This document shows, piece after piece, positions 58,073 through 64,000 of a stretch of DNA of 64,000 bases. The notes beneath the pieces are model-generated. The model was given only the letters and a program-made list of their open reading frames with translations. It was not told the DNA's origin and did not search any database. The stretch is taken from contig NZ_JAGIAW010000002.1 of NCBI RefSeq assembly GCF_017744655.1, positions 62,001 through 126,000 of the forward strand, in the 5' to 3' direction. Numbering within the stretch: the first letter of the stretch is position 1; each line of letters begins with the position of its first letter. Origin of the DNA: Devosia sp. (GTDB lineage Bacteria > Pseudomonadota > Alphaproteobacteria > Rhizobiales > Devosiaceae). The position numbers and the translations under genes were made by a program.

Positions 58073-58153
58073 CCCAAGCGTTGGCGGAGCGGTCTTCTTC
58101 ATCTAAAATTCTCTGAAGATAGAGGCTCCCGCCAGAGCAAATGCATGTCTGGC
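58068..58153 (+). promoter_or_regulatory. cysS attenuator: three overlapping, mutually exclusive stem-loops
   Basis: Helix A: GCTAAC (58068-58073) with GTTGGC (58080-58085), one G-U pair; it contains the last Cys codon and the stop. Helix B: GGCGGAGC (58083-58090) with GCTCCCGCC (58125-58133), one bulge, with an inner TCTTCA/TGAAGA stem. Helix C: GCCAGA (58131-58136) with TCTGGC (58148-58153), which includes the upstream cysS ATG (58145) and ends four bases before the AGGA that serves ATG 58169. A and B share 58083-58085; B and C share 58131-58133. A ribosome stalled on a Cys codon would cover A, favour B and open C. There is no T-run, so control would be translational. Confidence 0.6.
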
Positions 58154-58168
58154 CCACAGGACCTCTCG

Positions 58169-59578
58169 ATGACCCCGCAGATCGCCCTCTACAACACGCT
58201 CAGCCGCACCAAGGCGCCCTTCGCGCCCATGGATGCGAACAATGTGCGCATGTATGTCTGCGGTCCCACGGTCTATGACTTTGCCCATATCGGCAATGCG
58301 CGCCCGGTCATCGTTTTCGACGTGCTCTTCCGCCTGTTGCGCCATGTCTATGGCGAAAACCACGTCACCTATGTGCGCAACATCACCGACGTCGACGACA
58401 AGATCAACGCCCGCGCCCTGCGCGATTTCCCCGATCTGCCGCTCAACGAGGCGATCCGCAAGGTCACGGAAAAGACCGAGGACCAGTTCCTCGCCGACGT
58501 GAAGGCCCTCGGCACGCTGCAACCCACCCACCAGCCGCGCGCCACCGACAACATCACCGAGATGCAGACCCTGATCTCGGCGCTGATCGAAAAGAACCAC
58601 GCCTACAATGCCGGCGGCGAAGTCCTCTTCCGCACCCGTTCCATGGAAGATTACGGCCAGCTTTCCGGCCGCAACCTGGAAGACAACCTTGCCGGCGCCC
58701 GCGTCGCCGTCGAAGCGCACAAAGAAGACCCGGCCGACTTCGTCCTCTGGAAACTCTCCTCGGAAACCGAACCCGGCTGGCCGAGCCCCTGGGGCCGCGG
58801 CCGCCCCGGCTGGCACATCGAATGCTCCGCCATGTCCGAGCGCTATCTCGGCCAGACTTTTGACATCCATGGCGGCGGCCTCGATCTGATCTTCCCGCAC
58901 CATGAAAACGAAATCGCCCAGTCCCGTTGCGCCCACGGCACCCACGCCATGGCCAATGTCTGGATGCACAACGGCTTCCTGCAGGTCGAAGGACAGAAAA
59001 TGTCCAAGAGCCTCGGCAATTTCGTCACCATCAACGAACTCTTGGAAACCGGCGCCATGGGCGGCCGCGCCTGGATCGGCGACGTCCTGCGCCTTGCCAT
59101 GCTCATGACGCACTACCGCGAGCCCATCGACTTCACGGTCAAGCGCCTCGAAGAGGCCGAGGCAAAACTCCGCGACTGGCAACGCGCCGCCCGCGGCGCA
59201 ACCCTTGCCGAGGGTGACGCCCCCGACGCCTCGGTGGTCAATGAACTCGCCGACGACCTCAATTTCCACCGCGCCAGCGTCGCGCTCGATTTCATCGCCA
59301 AGAAAGCCAATCGCGAAGAAGGCAACGCCAAGCACTGCCTCGCCGCCACCCTGCGCTTCCTCGGCTTCAGCCTCGACAGCTTGCTGGACTCCAACGATGG
59401 CTGGGAAGCCCCCGCCCACATCGCCAACGCCATCGCCGACCGCCTCGCCGCCCTCAACGCCAAGGACTTTGCGAAGGCAGACACCATCCGCAACGAGCTG
59501 GCCGAACAAGGCATTGCCCTCCTCGACTACAAGGACGAACAGGGCCAGCGTGCGACCAAATGGGAAGTGAAGCGGTGA
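58169..59578 (+). CDS. cysS: cysteinyl-tRNA synthetase
   Basis: 469 residues from ATG 58169, with AGGA seven bases upstream (ATG 58145 is an in-frame alternative, eight codons earlier). Class I motifs: [18 protein letters not shown] with zinc ligand C31 and HIGN at 40-43; further zinc ligands in [14 protein letters not shown] and [19 protein letters not shown]. The enzyme attaches cysteine to tRNA-Cys. A Cys-codon-rich leader lies directly upstream. Its stop overlaps an ATG (TGATG) of the following repeat-associated frame. Confidence 0.97.
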
Positions 59579-60114
59579 TGGTGGCCCCCGAGCATACCCC
59601 TCACCCGTCTCGGCCTCCGGCCGATCCACCCTCTCCCGCAAGGGGCGAGGGCGGGCCAGCGCTTTTGATTGGCACATTGCCTGCCACCTCCGCCGGTCTG
59701 CCTTCTCCCCTTGCGGGAGAAGGTGCCCGGAGGGCGGATGAGGGGTATTCTTCGCCGAAGCATCGAAAAGTTTCCGGTCTCCTCCGCGGTCGTGCCCGCT
59801 CCATGCGCCACGACCCGACCGAAGCCGAACAGCGGCTGTGGCGTCTCCTGCGAAGCCGTCGCTTCTCCGGCTTCAAATTCCGCCGGCAGTTTCCGGTCGA
59901 TCACTACATCGCCGACTTCGTCTGCCTCGATGCTCGTCTCATCATCGAAGCCGACGGCTCCCAACACGCTGAATCCCTCCGCGACCTCGTCCGCGACGCC
60001 TATCTCCATGCGCAAAATTTCCGCCTCCTCCGCCTCTGGAACAACGCCATCCTCGCCCGTCCCGACGACGTCAGCGAAACCATCTGGGCCACTCTCCACG
60101 AGAAACCCCAATGA
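59578..60114 (+). CDS. DUF559 (restriction-endonuclease-like fold) protein, N-terminus from repeat
   Basis: The conserved part begins near residue 75 with RARSMRHDPTEAEQRLWRLL and continues FKFRRQFPVDHYIADFVCLD and LIIEADGSQH to NAILARPDDV, the DUF559 endonuclease-like fold related to very-short-patch nucleases, with FRRQ...DF.C...IIE.DG.QH as the catalytic-core pattern. ATG 59578 overlaps the cysS stop, but the first 57 or so residues are translated from a palindromic repeat; ATG 59803 would give a 103-residue protein that loses the first residues of the domain. Function unknown. Such genes are often found beside this kind of repeat. Confidence 0.75.
   Translation: MVAPEHTPHPSRPPADPPSPARGEGGPALLIGTLPATSAGLPSPLAGEGARRADEGYSSPKHRKVSGLLRGRARSMRHDPTEAEQRLWRLLRSRRFSGFKFRRQFPVDHYIADFVCLDARLIIEADGSQHAESLRDLVRDAYLHAQNFRLLRLWNNAILARPDDVSETIWATLHEKPQ
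59594..59748. repeat. palindromic, MITE-like repeat between cysS and the DUF559 domain
   Basis: Outer arms ATACCCCTCA (59594-59603) and TGAGGGGTAT (59739-59748) are perfect 10-bp inverted repeats. Inside, CCTTCTCCC-CTTGC-GGGAGAAGG (59701-59723) is a 9-bp hairpin, and CTCTCCCGCAAGGGGCGAGGG near 59631 is a degenerate inverted copy. It lies within the frame leading to the DUF559 gene. It encodes no transposase. Confidence 0.7.
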
Positions 60115-60186
60115 CCGCATTCCTCCTGACAGCCCCTGTCACCGCGACCCCATCTCCATGGTCTCCTCAACACAGGAGCTACCACC

Positions 60187-60570
60187 ATGCTTGATCACGT
60201 CGGAATTCTCGTCGCAGACTGGAACAAGACCAAGGCCTTCTACGACGCCGCCTTCGCCCCTCTGGGCATCAGCCTTCTGATGCAGGTACCGGAAGAATAT
60301 ACCGGCGGCGTCAAGGTTGCCGGCTATGGCAAGGGCCAGCCCGATTTCTGGCTGACCGAGGCCAAGGACACCGGCCCCGGCCGCCACTACGCCTTCGGCT
60401 CGGACAATCGCGCCGCCATCGACGCCTTCTATGCCGCCGCCATGGCTGCCGGTGGCCGCGATAATGGCGCGCCCGGCCTCCGCCCGCACTATAGCGAAAA
60501 CTACTACGCCGCCTTCGTCCTCGATCCCGATGGCAACAATATCGAAGTGGTCTGTCATGCCCCAGAATGA
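60187..60570 (+). CDS. VOC-superfamily protein, lactoylglutathione-lyase-like
   Basis: 127 residues, with CAGGAG upstream. The N-terminal LDHVGILVADWNKTKAFYDAAF and C-terminal YYAAFVLDPDGNNIEVVCH are the paired VOC module ends; H4 and the Glu in NIEVV are likely metal ligands, while the middle His and Glu are less clear. Possibly a glyoxalase-like enzyme or a binding protein. Its stop lies 14 bases inside the first GFA-family gene, so the five genes form one translational unit. Confidence 0.9.
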   Translation: MLDHVGILVADWNKTKAFYDAAFAPLGISLLMQVPEEYTGGVKVAGYGKGQPDFWLTEAKDTGPGRHYAFGSDNRAAIDAFYAAAMAAGGRDNGAPGLRPHYSENYYAAFVLDPDGNNIEVVCHAPE

Positions 60571-61027
60571 AGCCCATACCGGGGGCTGCCAGTGTGGCGC
60601 GGTTCGTTTCCGCGTCACACGTCTCGGCCGGCCCTCCATCTGCCATTGCCGCATGTGCCAAAAGGCGTTCGGCGGCTTTTTCGGTCCGCTGGTCACGTCA
60701 CACAACGCCACCTGGACCCGTGGCGAACCCAAATGGTTCCAGAGTTCGGACGCTGCCCGCCGCGCCTTCTGCGGCGATTGCGGCACCCCGCTCGCCTATG
60801 AAACCCGCTTCGGTCTCGAACTCGCCATCGGCGCCTTCGACGATCCCACCGTCGCCGCCCCCGAAATTCAGGTCAATCCCGCCGACAAGCAGCCCTTTTT
60901 CGACACGCTGACGAGCCTGCCCATGCGCAGCGAGGTTAGCGACGAATGGCGCGACTTCATGGCCGGCATCCATTCCAACCAGCATCCGGACCACGATACG
61001 GAAGCCTGGCCGCCGAGGCACGAATAG
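60557..61027 (+). CDS. GFA-family protein, tandem copy 1
   Basis: 156 residues from ATG 60557, overlapping the VOC stop by 14 bases; the ORF track start is inside the VOC gene. GFA/CENP-V fold with two zinc sites: GGCQCGAVRF, CHCRMCQKAFGG and FCGDCGTPLAY. The C-terminal tail has NQHPDHDTEAWPP, shared by all four copies. The family is named after glutathione-dependent formaldehyde-activating enzyme (Gfa), but most members have no proven activity. The TAG stop is directly followed by the ATG of copy 2. Confidence 0.92.
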   Translation: MPQNEAHTGGCQCGAVRFRVTRLGRPSICHCRMCQKAFGGFFGPLVTSHNATWTRGEPKWFQSSDAARRAFCGDCGTPLAYETRFGLELAIGAFDDPTVAAPEIQVNPADKQPFFDTLTSLPMRSEVSDEWRDFMAGIHSNQHPDHDTEAWPPRHE

Positions 61028-61561
61028 ATGTCCGGCACGGAGGAGAGCCTAGCCTGGCGCAAGGATGAAAGCGGAGACGATGTGCGTATCACCGGCGGCT
61101 GCCAGTGCGGCGCCGTGCGCTATGCGCTCCATCGCCAGCCCGCGCGCCCCTGCATCTGCCATTGCCGCATGTGCCAGAAAGCCTCGGGCAATCTCTTCGG
61201 CAGCTTTGCCGGCGTTCCCGCGCGCTTCTTCGAATTGACGCGTGGCCAGCTCTCGGTCTTTCGCACTTCCGATGAAGGCGAGCGCTGCTTCTGCACGGCC
61301 TGCGGCACGCCGCTTGCCTGGCGCACGCCCGATCAGTCATGGGTTTCCATTACCATCGGCTCCCTCGATAATCCCGAAGCCATGCGCCCCACCCATTTTT
61401 ATGGCGAAGAGGGCCGTATTTCCTGGGCGGCCGATGTCGTCGCCCATATCGCCACCATTACTGGCCAGGGCGATGACACGCTCGTGCAAGCCATCAAGCG
61501 CAGCAATCATCAGCATCCGGATCACGACACCGAGAGCTGGCCGCCCAAGGAGACCACCTGA
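61028..61561 (+). CDS. GFA-family protein, tandem copy 2
   Basis: 177 residues, starting on the base after the copy 1 stop. It has an N-terminal extension of about 20 residues (MSGTEESLAWRKDESGDD), the longest of the four. Zinc-site motifs GGCQCGAVRYAL, CHCRMCQKASGN and CFCTACGTPLAW are intact, and the tail reads NHQHPDHDTESWPPK. Its middle (GEEGRISWAADVVAHIA) differs from the other copies, so substrate preference may have diverged. The stop overlaps copy 3 as TGATG. Confidence 0.92.
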   Translation: MSGTEESLAWRKDESGDDVRITGGCQCGAVRYALHRQPARPCICHCRMCQKASGNLFGSFAGVPARFFELTRGQLSVFRTSDEGERCFCTACGTPLAWRTPDQSWVSITIGSLDNPEAMRPTHFYGEEGRISWAADVVAHIATITGQGDDTLVQAIKRSNHQHPDHDTESWPPKETT

Positions 61562-62046
61562 TGGACCGTTACAAGATGGACGTAAGCGGCGGCTGCCAAT
61601 GCGGCGCCGTGCGCTATCACGCCACCGAAATGTTCGACAATTCGCACATCTGCCACTGCCGCATGTGCCAGAAGGCGGTGGGCAATATCTTCGCCGCCCT
61701 CGTCGCCGCCCCGCGCGAAGTCATCACCTGGACCCGCGGCACCCCCAGCCGCTTCCGCAGTTCCGACCACGTAGATCGCGGCTTCTGCAACAAGTGCGGC
61801 ACGCCTCTTTTCTACGAAGACCTCACCGGCAACCGCGTCAATTTCACCATCGGCTCGCTCGATCATCCCGAGCTCTTCCCGCCTGGCGCCAATACCGGCA
61901 ATGAAAGCCGCGTGCCCTGGTTCGATACGCTCCCCAGCATCGAACACGGCGGCATCACCGAAGACCCAAACCGGCAGGATTGGTGGAGCGGTATCAAGGC
62001 CACCAACAGCCAGCACCCCGATCACGACACGGACAAATGGCCATGA
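61561..62046 (+). CDS. GFA-family protein, tandem copy 3
   Basis: 161 residues, TGATG overlap with copy 2. Motifs GGCQCGAVRYHA, CHCRMCQKAVGN and FCNKCGTPLFY, with tail NSQHPDHDTDKWP. The region GNESRVPWFDTLPSI is shared with copy 4 (GNESRVAWYGNLLSV), so copies 3 and 4 look like the most recent duplication pair. The stop overlaps copy 4 as ATGA. Confidence 0.92.
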   Translation: MDRYKMDVSGGCQCGAVRYHATEMFDNSHICHCRMCQKAVGNIFAALVAAPREVITWTRGTPSRFRSSDHVDRGFCNKCGTPLFYEDLTGNRVNFTIGSLDHPELFPPGANTGNESRVPWFDTLPSIEHGGITEDPNRQDWWSGIKATNSQHPDHDTDKWP

Positions 62047-62525
62047 GCACCGTCCTGCTCACCGGCGGCTGCCAATGCGGCGCTGTGCGCTACGCACTCG
62101 ACCAGCAGCCCTTCAATGTCCACGTCTGCCATTGCCGCATGTGCCAGAAAGCCGTCGGCGGCCCATTCGCCGTTATCTGCCCGGTGATGAAGACCGCCTT
62201 CCGCGTCACGCGCGGCACCATCAGCTATTTTCATAGCTCCGATGTCGCGCGCCGCGGTTTCTGCGCCGCCTGCGGCACGCCGCTGCTCTTCGAATATCCC
62301 GAAGGCCAGGATCTCGGCGTACTCGTCGGCACCCTCGACGAGCCCGATCGCGCTCCACCTGAAAACCAGTACGGCAATGAAAGCCGGGTCGCCTGGTACG
62401 GGAATTTGCTGTCCGTTCCCGGCGATCGTCCAACCTATGCCGACAATCCCGAAATGCTGCATCGCATCAGCAGCACCAGTCACCAGCATCCCGACCACGA
62501 CACGGCCACCTGGCCCCCCAAGTAA
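62043..62525 (+). CDS. GFA-family protein, tandem copy 4
   Basis: 160 residues from ATG 62043 (ATGA overlap); the ORF track start is inside copy 3. Motifs GGCQCGAVRYAL, CHCRMCQKAVGG and FCAACGTPLLF, with tail SHQHPDHDTATWPPK. It lies 21 bases before cimA, so the GFA run and cimA may be on one transcript. Confidence 0.92.
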   Translation: MSTVLLTGGCQCGAVRYALDQQPFNVHVCHCRMCQKAVGGPFAVICPVMKTAFRVTRGTISYFHSSDVARRGFCAACGTPLLFEYPEGQDLGVLVGTLDEPDRAPPENQYGNESRVAWYGNLLSVPGDRPTYADNPEMLHRISSTSHQHPDHDTATWPPK

Positions 62526-62546
62526 CTCGACTAGCAGGCCCCCAAA

Positions 62547-64000
62547 ATGTCCCGAGACCGCCTCTATCTTTTCGACACGACCCTGCGCGACGGCGCGCAG
62601 ACGGCCGGCGTAGAATTCTCGCTCGAGGACAAGATCGCCATTATTGATCTCCTGGAGGAACTGGGCGTCGACTACATCGAAGGCGGCTATCCCGGTGCCA
62701 ATCCGGTCGACACCGCCTTTTTCGAGAAGAAGCGCACCAAGAACGCCACCTTCACCGCCTTCGGCATGACCAAGCGGGCAGGGCGCTCCGCCGCCAACGA
62801 TCCCGGCGTCCAGGGCCTCGTCAATTCCGCCGCCGCCGCCACCTGCTTCGTTGCGAAAGCCTGGGACTACCAGGTCGAACTCGCTTTGAGCTCCACCACC
62901 GACGAGCACCTCGAAGGCCTCGCCGACACGGTCCGCACTGCCGCATCAGCCGGCAAGGAAGTGCTCATCGACCTCGAACACTTCTTCGACGGCTTCAAAG
63001 CCAATCCCGAATACGCCCTATCCTGCGTCACGACGGCCCTCGAAGCCGGTGCCCGCTGGGTCGTCCTCTGCGACACCAATGGCGGCACCATGCCCTCCGA
63101 AGTCCGCACCATCATCGGCACAGTCCTCAAGTTCGCCCCCGGCGAAAGGCTCGGCATCCACCCCCATGACGATACCGGCCAGGCCGTCGCCAATGCACTT
63201 GCCGCCGTTGAAACCGGCGTTCGCCAGATCCAGGGCACGCTCAATGGCCTCGGCGAGCGCTGCGGCAATGCCAATCTCGTCACCCTGATCCCGACGCTGG
63301 TCCTCAAACCCTACTATGCCGAGCGCTTCGAAACCGGCATCACGCCCGAAAAGCTCGAACGTCTGACCCACATCTCCCGCGCCTTCGACGATCGCCTCAA
63401 CCGCGCCCCCGCGCGCCAGGCCCCCTATGTCGGCGCCGCCGCCTTCGCCACCAAAGCCGGCATCCATGCCTCGGCCCTGCTCAAGGATTTTTCGACCTAT
63501 GAGCACGTTCCGCCCGAAAGCGTCGGCAATGAACGTGCCATCATGGTCTCTCAGCAGGCCGGCAAGTCGAACCTGCTCACCGCTTTGGCCCGCCACGATA
63601 TCGTGCTCGAAAAGGACGATCCCCGCCTCGAAAAGCTGCTGTCCACGGTCAAGGAGCGCGAGGCCCAAGGTTATTCCTATGACGGCGCGGATGCCTCCTT
63701 CGCCGTCCTCGCCCGCTCCGTCCTCGGCACGCTCCCGAGCTTCTTCGATGTCGAGCACTACCGCGCCATGGTCGAGCGCCGCCACAATGCGCAGGGCGAA
63801 GAGATCACCGTCACCGAAGCCGTGGTAAAAGTCCGCGTCGATGGCCAATTGCTGATGTCCGTCGCCGAAGGCAATGGCCCCGTCAACGCCCTCGATCAGG
63901 CCTTGCGAAAAGATCTCGGCATTTATTCCGCGCGCATCGAAGACCTGGAGCTGGTCGATTTCAAGGTCCGTATCCTGGACGGCGGCACGGGCGCGGTCAC
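62547..64000 (+). CDS. cimA: (R)-citramalate synthase, 5' part (runs off the window)
   Basis: Not in the ORF track because no stop falls inside the window; 484 codons are visible. The family N-terminus MSRDRLYLFDTTLRDGAQTA and catalytic-barrel motifs (LFDTTLRDG, LCDTNGGTMPSEV, GIHPHDDTGQAVAN, GTLNGLGERCGNANL) belong to the homocitrate/2-isopropylmalate synthase family. The long form with FATKAGIHASALLKD and a C-terminal allosteric domain (starting around residue 390) fits citramalate synthase (CimA), which condenses pyruvate and acetyl-CoA for isoleucine synthesis. 2-isopropylmalate synthase is the alternative. Confidence 0.9.
   Translation, partial: MSRDRLYLFDTTLRDGAQTAGVEFSLEDKIAIIDLLEELGVDYIEGGYPGANPVDTAFFEKKRTKNATFTAFGMTKRAGRSAANDPGVQGLVNSAAAATCFVAKAWDYQVELALSSTTDEHLEGLADTVRTAASAGKEVLIDLEHFFDGFKANPEYALSCVTTALEAGARWVVLCDTNGGTMPSEVRTIIGTVLKFAPGERLGIHPHDDTGQAVANALAAVETGVRQIQGTLNGLGERCGNANLVTLIPTLVLKPYYAERFETGITPEKLERLTHISRAFDDRLNRAPARQAPYVGAAAFATKAGIHASALLKDFSTYEHVPPESVGNERAIMVSQQAGKSNLLTALARHDIVLEKDDPRLEKLLSTVKEREAQGYSYDGADASFAVLARSVLGTLPSFFDVEHYRAMVERRHNAQGEEITVTEAVVKVRVDGQLLMSVAEGNGPVNALDQALRKDLGIYSARIEDLELVDFKVRILDGGTGAV

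Follow-up and report, generated by a model that had tools for sequence, protein, structure and literature searches.

The window, a stretch of 64,000 nucleotides from a Devosia sp. contig, contains a row of four genes of the GFA family. The row is probably an instance, with four copies, of a tandem cluster that is old and variable in size and lies between cysS and cimA in Hyphomicrobiales. Its genes belong to a single GFA subfamily, whose members share a beta-tent fold, two zinc sites and a fixed QHPD..T..W tail. The copies are most likely zinc/thiol-binding paralogues under purifying selection, each specialised for a thiol or aldehyde substrate that differs from those of the others.

The four genes are complete ORFs on the forward strand (60557-62525) that overlap or abut one another. 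Copy 1 (60557-61027, 156 aa) is followed by copy 2 (61028-61561, 177 aa), copy 3 (61561-62046, 161 aa) and copy 4 (62043-62525, 160 aa), and the successive junctions read TAG-ATG, TGATG and ATGA. Immediately upstream is a gene for a VOC/glyoxalase-fold protein (PF00903; 60187..60570, + strand), the stop codon of which (60568-60570) falls within copy 1. There are no intergenic bases from the VOC gene through the end of copy 4. A 21-base gap then separates copy 4 from cimA (62547..63998, + strand), a citramalate synthase-like gene that reaches the window end and is the conserved downstream neighbour of the cluster. The conserved upstream neighbour, cysS, is at 58145..59578 on the same strand. 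The preliminary description of four adjacent, coupled GFA genes, with these junctions, the coupled VOC gene and the short gap before cimA, is confirmed in the ORFs. A row of four GFA genes with common motifs is far beyond chance. A search for independent promoters across 59500-62700 returned one promoter-like site (61344-61372), and shuffled sequence yields as many; independent promoters were rejected on this result. Between cysS and the VOC gene is a DUF559 (restriction-endonuclease-like) gene (59560-60114), and similar genes are found at this place in several relatives. Nested inverted repeats (59591-59751) lie between cysS and the DUF559 gene, with 35-nt arms that are 83% complementary and 17-nt arms that are 88% complementary. 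The DUF559 ORF as listed reads through these repeats in its N-terminal part, so the gene itself probably starts near 59803.

All four copies pass the curated cut-off (24.3 bits) for the GFA/CENP-V domain (PF04828), scoring 64.3, 85.2, 77.5 and 84.4 bits for copies 1-4, respectively. Forty-nine columns are invariant across the four, including all seven zinc cysteines and Q-H-P-D-H-D-T..W-P. The motifs GGCQCGAVR, CHCRMCQKA, FCxxCGTPL and QHPDHDTxxWP, already recognised in the preliminary description, are unchanged in every copy. The seven cysteines (4 + 3) line up with the cysteines of Paracoccus Gfa (1X6M) and are predicted zinc ligands; the Paracoccus protein has two zinc sites, C31/C33/C99/C102 and C52/C54/C57 (PMC4682968). 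Copies 1 and 3 were modelled with AF2; the models match the fold of PA2722 (8AJQ), 3FAC and Gfa 1X6M, and the top Foldseek matches are all GFA-family entries, both for copy 3 (E 3.5e-8 to 1.3e-4) and for copy 1 (E 6.4e-7 to 3.4e-4). The best structural and sequence match is the CENP-V/GFA-domain protein PA2722 of Pseudomonas aeruginosa (PDB 8AJQ; profile E 5e-19, TM about 0.6-0.75), but this protein has only 132 aa and the alignment ends ahead of the tail.

The shared domain and cysteines, a neighbour with a glyoxalase fold and the presence of frmA and fghA in the genome could be taken to mean that the copies are true Gfa, acting as S-(hydroxymethyl)glutathione synthases in canonical glutathione-dependent formaldehyde detoxification. 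We regard this as distinctly unlikely. The copies score 20.7-22.6 bits against TIGR02820, for which the equivalog cut-off is 234.55, and copy 1 has no match, while frmA and fghA are found together on another contig (C14). The identity as S-(hydroxymethyl)glutathione synthase was rejected on these scores, which are ten-fold under the cut-off. Paracoccus denitrificans Gfa (PDB 1X6M/1XA8) likewise has the GFA domain, the seven zinc-binding cysteines and the beta-tent fold, but its profile alignment with the array spans positions 10-82 only and leaves the QHPDHDT tail unmatched. The array proteins are also far under the equivalog cut-off.

The tail of copy 1, QHPDHDTEAWP, comprises residues 142-152 (60980..61012, + strand), and copies 2-4 end in the same tail. 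The source genome has 13 GFA-domain places. The array supplies the four with the QHPD tail, and it was found at none of the other places where a GFA ORF was recovered. We also examined named loci from GTDB genomes, retrieved with the patterns GGCQCGA[VI] and CRMCQKAxG (the best 80 of 564, a set biased towards close relatives). QHPD is present in 139 of the 140 GFA genes at these 80 loci. The filter HPDx[DE][ST] itself accounts for part of the tail invariance that was counted. The Q and W on either side, which it does not include, are nevertheless conserved at 99-100% as well. The QHPD-tailed proteins of other Hyphomicrobiales, Xanthomonadaceae and Methylovulum (L091-L170) have the same tail and core as the array. 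Those of Hyphomicrobiales also have the same cysS-GFA-cimA neighbourhood, usually with one to three copies; outside this order, the genes are single and cysS and cimA are absent from view. Since single GFA genes with the tail occur in, e.g., Xanthomonadaceae and Methylovulum, yet the other GFA ORFs recovered from the source genome do not have it, the tail is a mark of a whole GFA subfamily and not a feature of arrays.

The preliminary description took the conserved tail to suggest a shared partner. In a stronger form, the four proteins would make up a hetero-oligomer tied together by their C-terminal tails, e.g., by swapping of tails between subunits. The strict translational coupling and a tail conserved equally with the zinc cysteines are in keeping with this. 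However, single-copy species keep the tail, and in the AF2 monomer of copy 3 (alignment of 125) the tail is ordered, the final two full blocks having pLDDT 95 and 90 in turn. An ordered tail in a predicted monomer therefore implies by itself no shared partner. Close relatives also vary in subunit number (1, 2, 3 or 4) and in the lineages that they hold, and the constant subunit set across species to be expected of an obligate complex is not seen. The suggestion of a shared partner is thus unsupported, and the hetero-oligomer is in our view quite improbable, although a homo-oligomer joined through the tail may still occur. The model of copy 3 points instead to a tail that packs onto its own domain. 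The tail of copy 1 was modelled with a lower pLDDT, about 75, from a shallower alignment. Among solved GFA structures, the sequence matches stop at profile position 122 or earlier and none covers the tail region.

The ancestry of the copies was examined in a tree of 74 rows, with AU tests on groups that the preliminary description had named in advance. Each copy in the window clusters with its own orthologous lineage, and for each the nearest homologue is a different one in another Devosia genome: the match is 97% with G023 for copy 1, 89% with G023 for copy 2, 92% with L091 for copy 3 and 84% with D. geojensis for copy 4. This is the outcome that the preliminary description had set as a refutation of its reading. 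The copies are not one another's closest relatives. A clade of all four copies is rejected (p 3e-51). Copies 3 and 4, previously thought to be the most recent pair, are likewise rejected as sisters (p 6e-31), and each has its closest relatives elsewhere. The two do share GNESRV, as had been observed. GNESRV was rejected as a sign of a recent pair: orthologues of copy 4 (G006, D. geojensis) also have it, one copy 3 orthologue has GNEARV, and the stretch is old, since G-x-E-x-R occurs in the subfamily consensus. Genes of one family that lie in tandem, overlapping and on the same strand might be taken as a recent amplification in this strain, raising dosage under aldehyde stress. The other array copies are only 44-48% identical to copy 4, the AU tests exclude both the common clade and the 3+4 pair, and other species hold orthologues of each copy. 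By these trees, recent amplification is already refuted, and we give it next to no credence. The proposal that the row arose by divergence of an enzyme family is supported, with a divergence that is ancient and older than these species. From pN/pS of 0.06-0.38 against their orthologues, all four copies therefore appear to be kept by purifying selection.

Of 61 genomes searched with copy 4, namely the source genome and those of 60 relatives, 58 gave matches. cysS upstream and cimA downstream flank all 36 same-genus loci that have an intact tail-bearing gene, and a VOC neighbour was found in only about half of them (19 of the 36). At this locus, the 36 arrays have one copy in 7 cases, two in 23, three in 5 and four in 1, which is the window. 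cysS and cimA are both present in 57 of the best 80 of 564 named loci, where the arrays at this locus have one (16), two (28), three (12) or four copies (1, Devosia geojensis L096). The D. geojensis set is a different one: it lacks copy 2 and combines a copy 1 type and a copy 4 type with two relatives of copy 3. Four genes in a row, noted before as unusual, are so only as the top of a range of one to four, in which one to three is usual. The row is the long end of the normal range and not a new machine. The copies differ in distribution. The lineage of copy 1 is present across nearly the whole genus, and that of copy 3 (HATE-M-DN type) is common. Copies 2 and 4 are patchy within the genus; the copy 2 lineage was seen in just three genomes of the genus (G000, G001 and G023) and that of copy 4 in G000, G006 and D. 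geojensis, with a broken relative in G012. Because of this patchiness and the broken relative, the history of the locus reads as gain and loss among old paralogues.

By homology, each protein would hold two zincs, a structural one (4 Cys) and a three-Cys one, and the latter may bind a low-molecular-weight thiol, e.g., glutathione. Each would then act on or carry thiol-aldehyde adducts, with the tail closing over its own domain and probably shaping the substrate pocket. The residues at positions 20, 46, 47, 68, 88, 89, 93 and 106 are constant inside each lineage but vary from one lineage to another, while the zinc and tail positions are invariant. Such lineage-specific residues around an invariant core fit a separate substrate for each copy; the copies may thus differ in the substrates they handle, and the set could be tuned between species as copies are gained and lost. 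Co-translation would give matched expression, for which a heteromer is not necessary. The label of enzyme is itself uncertain. Paracoccus Gfa binds glutathione but showed no measurable catalysis of hydroxymethylglutathione formation (PMC4682968), so that the array proteins may just as plausibly carry or handle thiol adducts as catalyse a reaction. More speculatively, and with a rather low probability, the QHPD..T..W-tailed proteins could form a GFA subfamily with a function of its own, where His and Asp of the tail add catalytic or metal-binding groups at the three-cysteine zinc site. Their target would be an uncharacterised thiol adduct linked to the cysS-cimA neighbourhood, and each paralogue would have its own substrate.

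What appeared to be an oddity becomes a tractable family. A tail conserved like the zinc ligands and a Hyphomicrobiales-wide neighbourhood mark a large subfamily, the name of which comes only from a formaldehyde enzyme of disputed activity. The varying copy sets are natural comparisons for seeking the real substrates, and it is the tail and the neighbourhood that deserve to be followed up. In the open-access literature, no description of the tail, of the cysS-GFA-cimA neighbourhood or of the array was found among the titles and abstracts returned.

Across most of the Hyphomicrobiales loci fetched, the conserved neighbourhood is cysS-(VOC)-GFA x1-4-(aminopeptidase-like hydrolase)-cimA. The hydrolase, an alpha/beta hydrolase that matches the S33 serine-aminopeptidase model, lies between the GFA genes and cimA in Rhizobiaceae and others and is probably a prolyl aminopeptidase, judging from its sequence. 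It is found inside or after the GFA array in L046, L061, L062, L069, L099, L122, L136 and many Rhizobiaceae loci; no close copy was found in the source genome, where the best match is 37% over part of its length. The broken relative of copy 4 in G012 (L055, 7012-7800; 69%) has two stop codons, and neither cysS nor cimA is in view there. The gap between cysS and the GFA genes in Rhizobium and Agrobacterium vitis holds what, judged by eye, is a VapB/VapC-like toxin-antitoxin pair (L129, 4127-4998; L141, 3803-4509).
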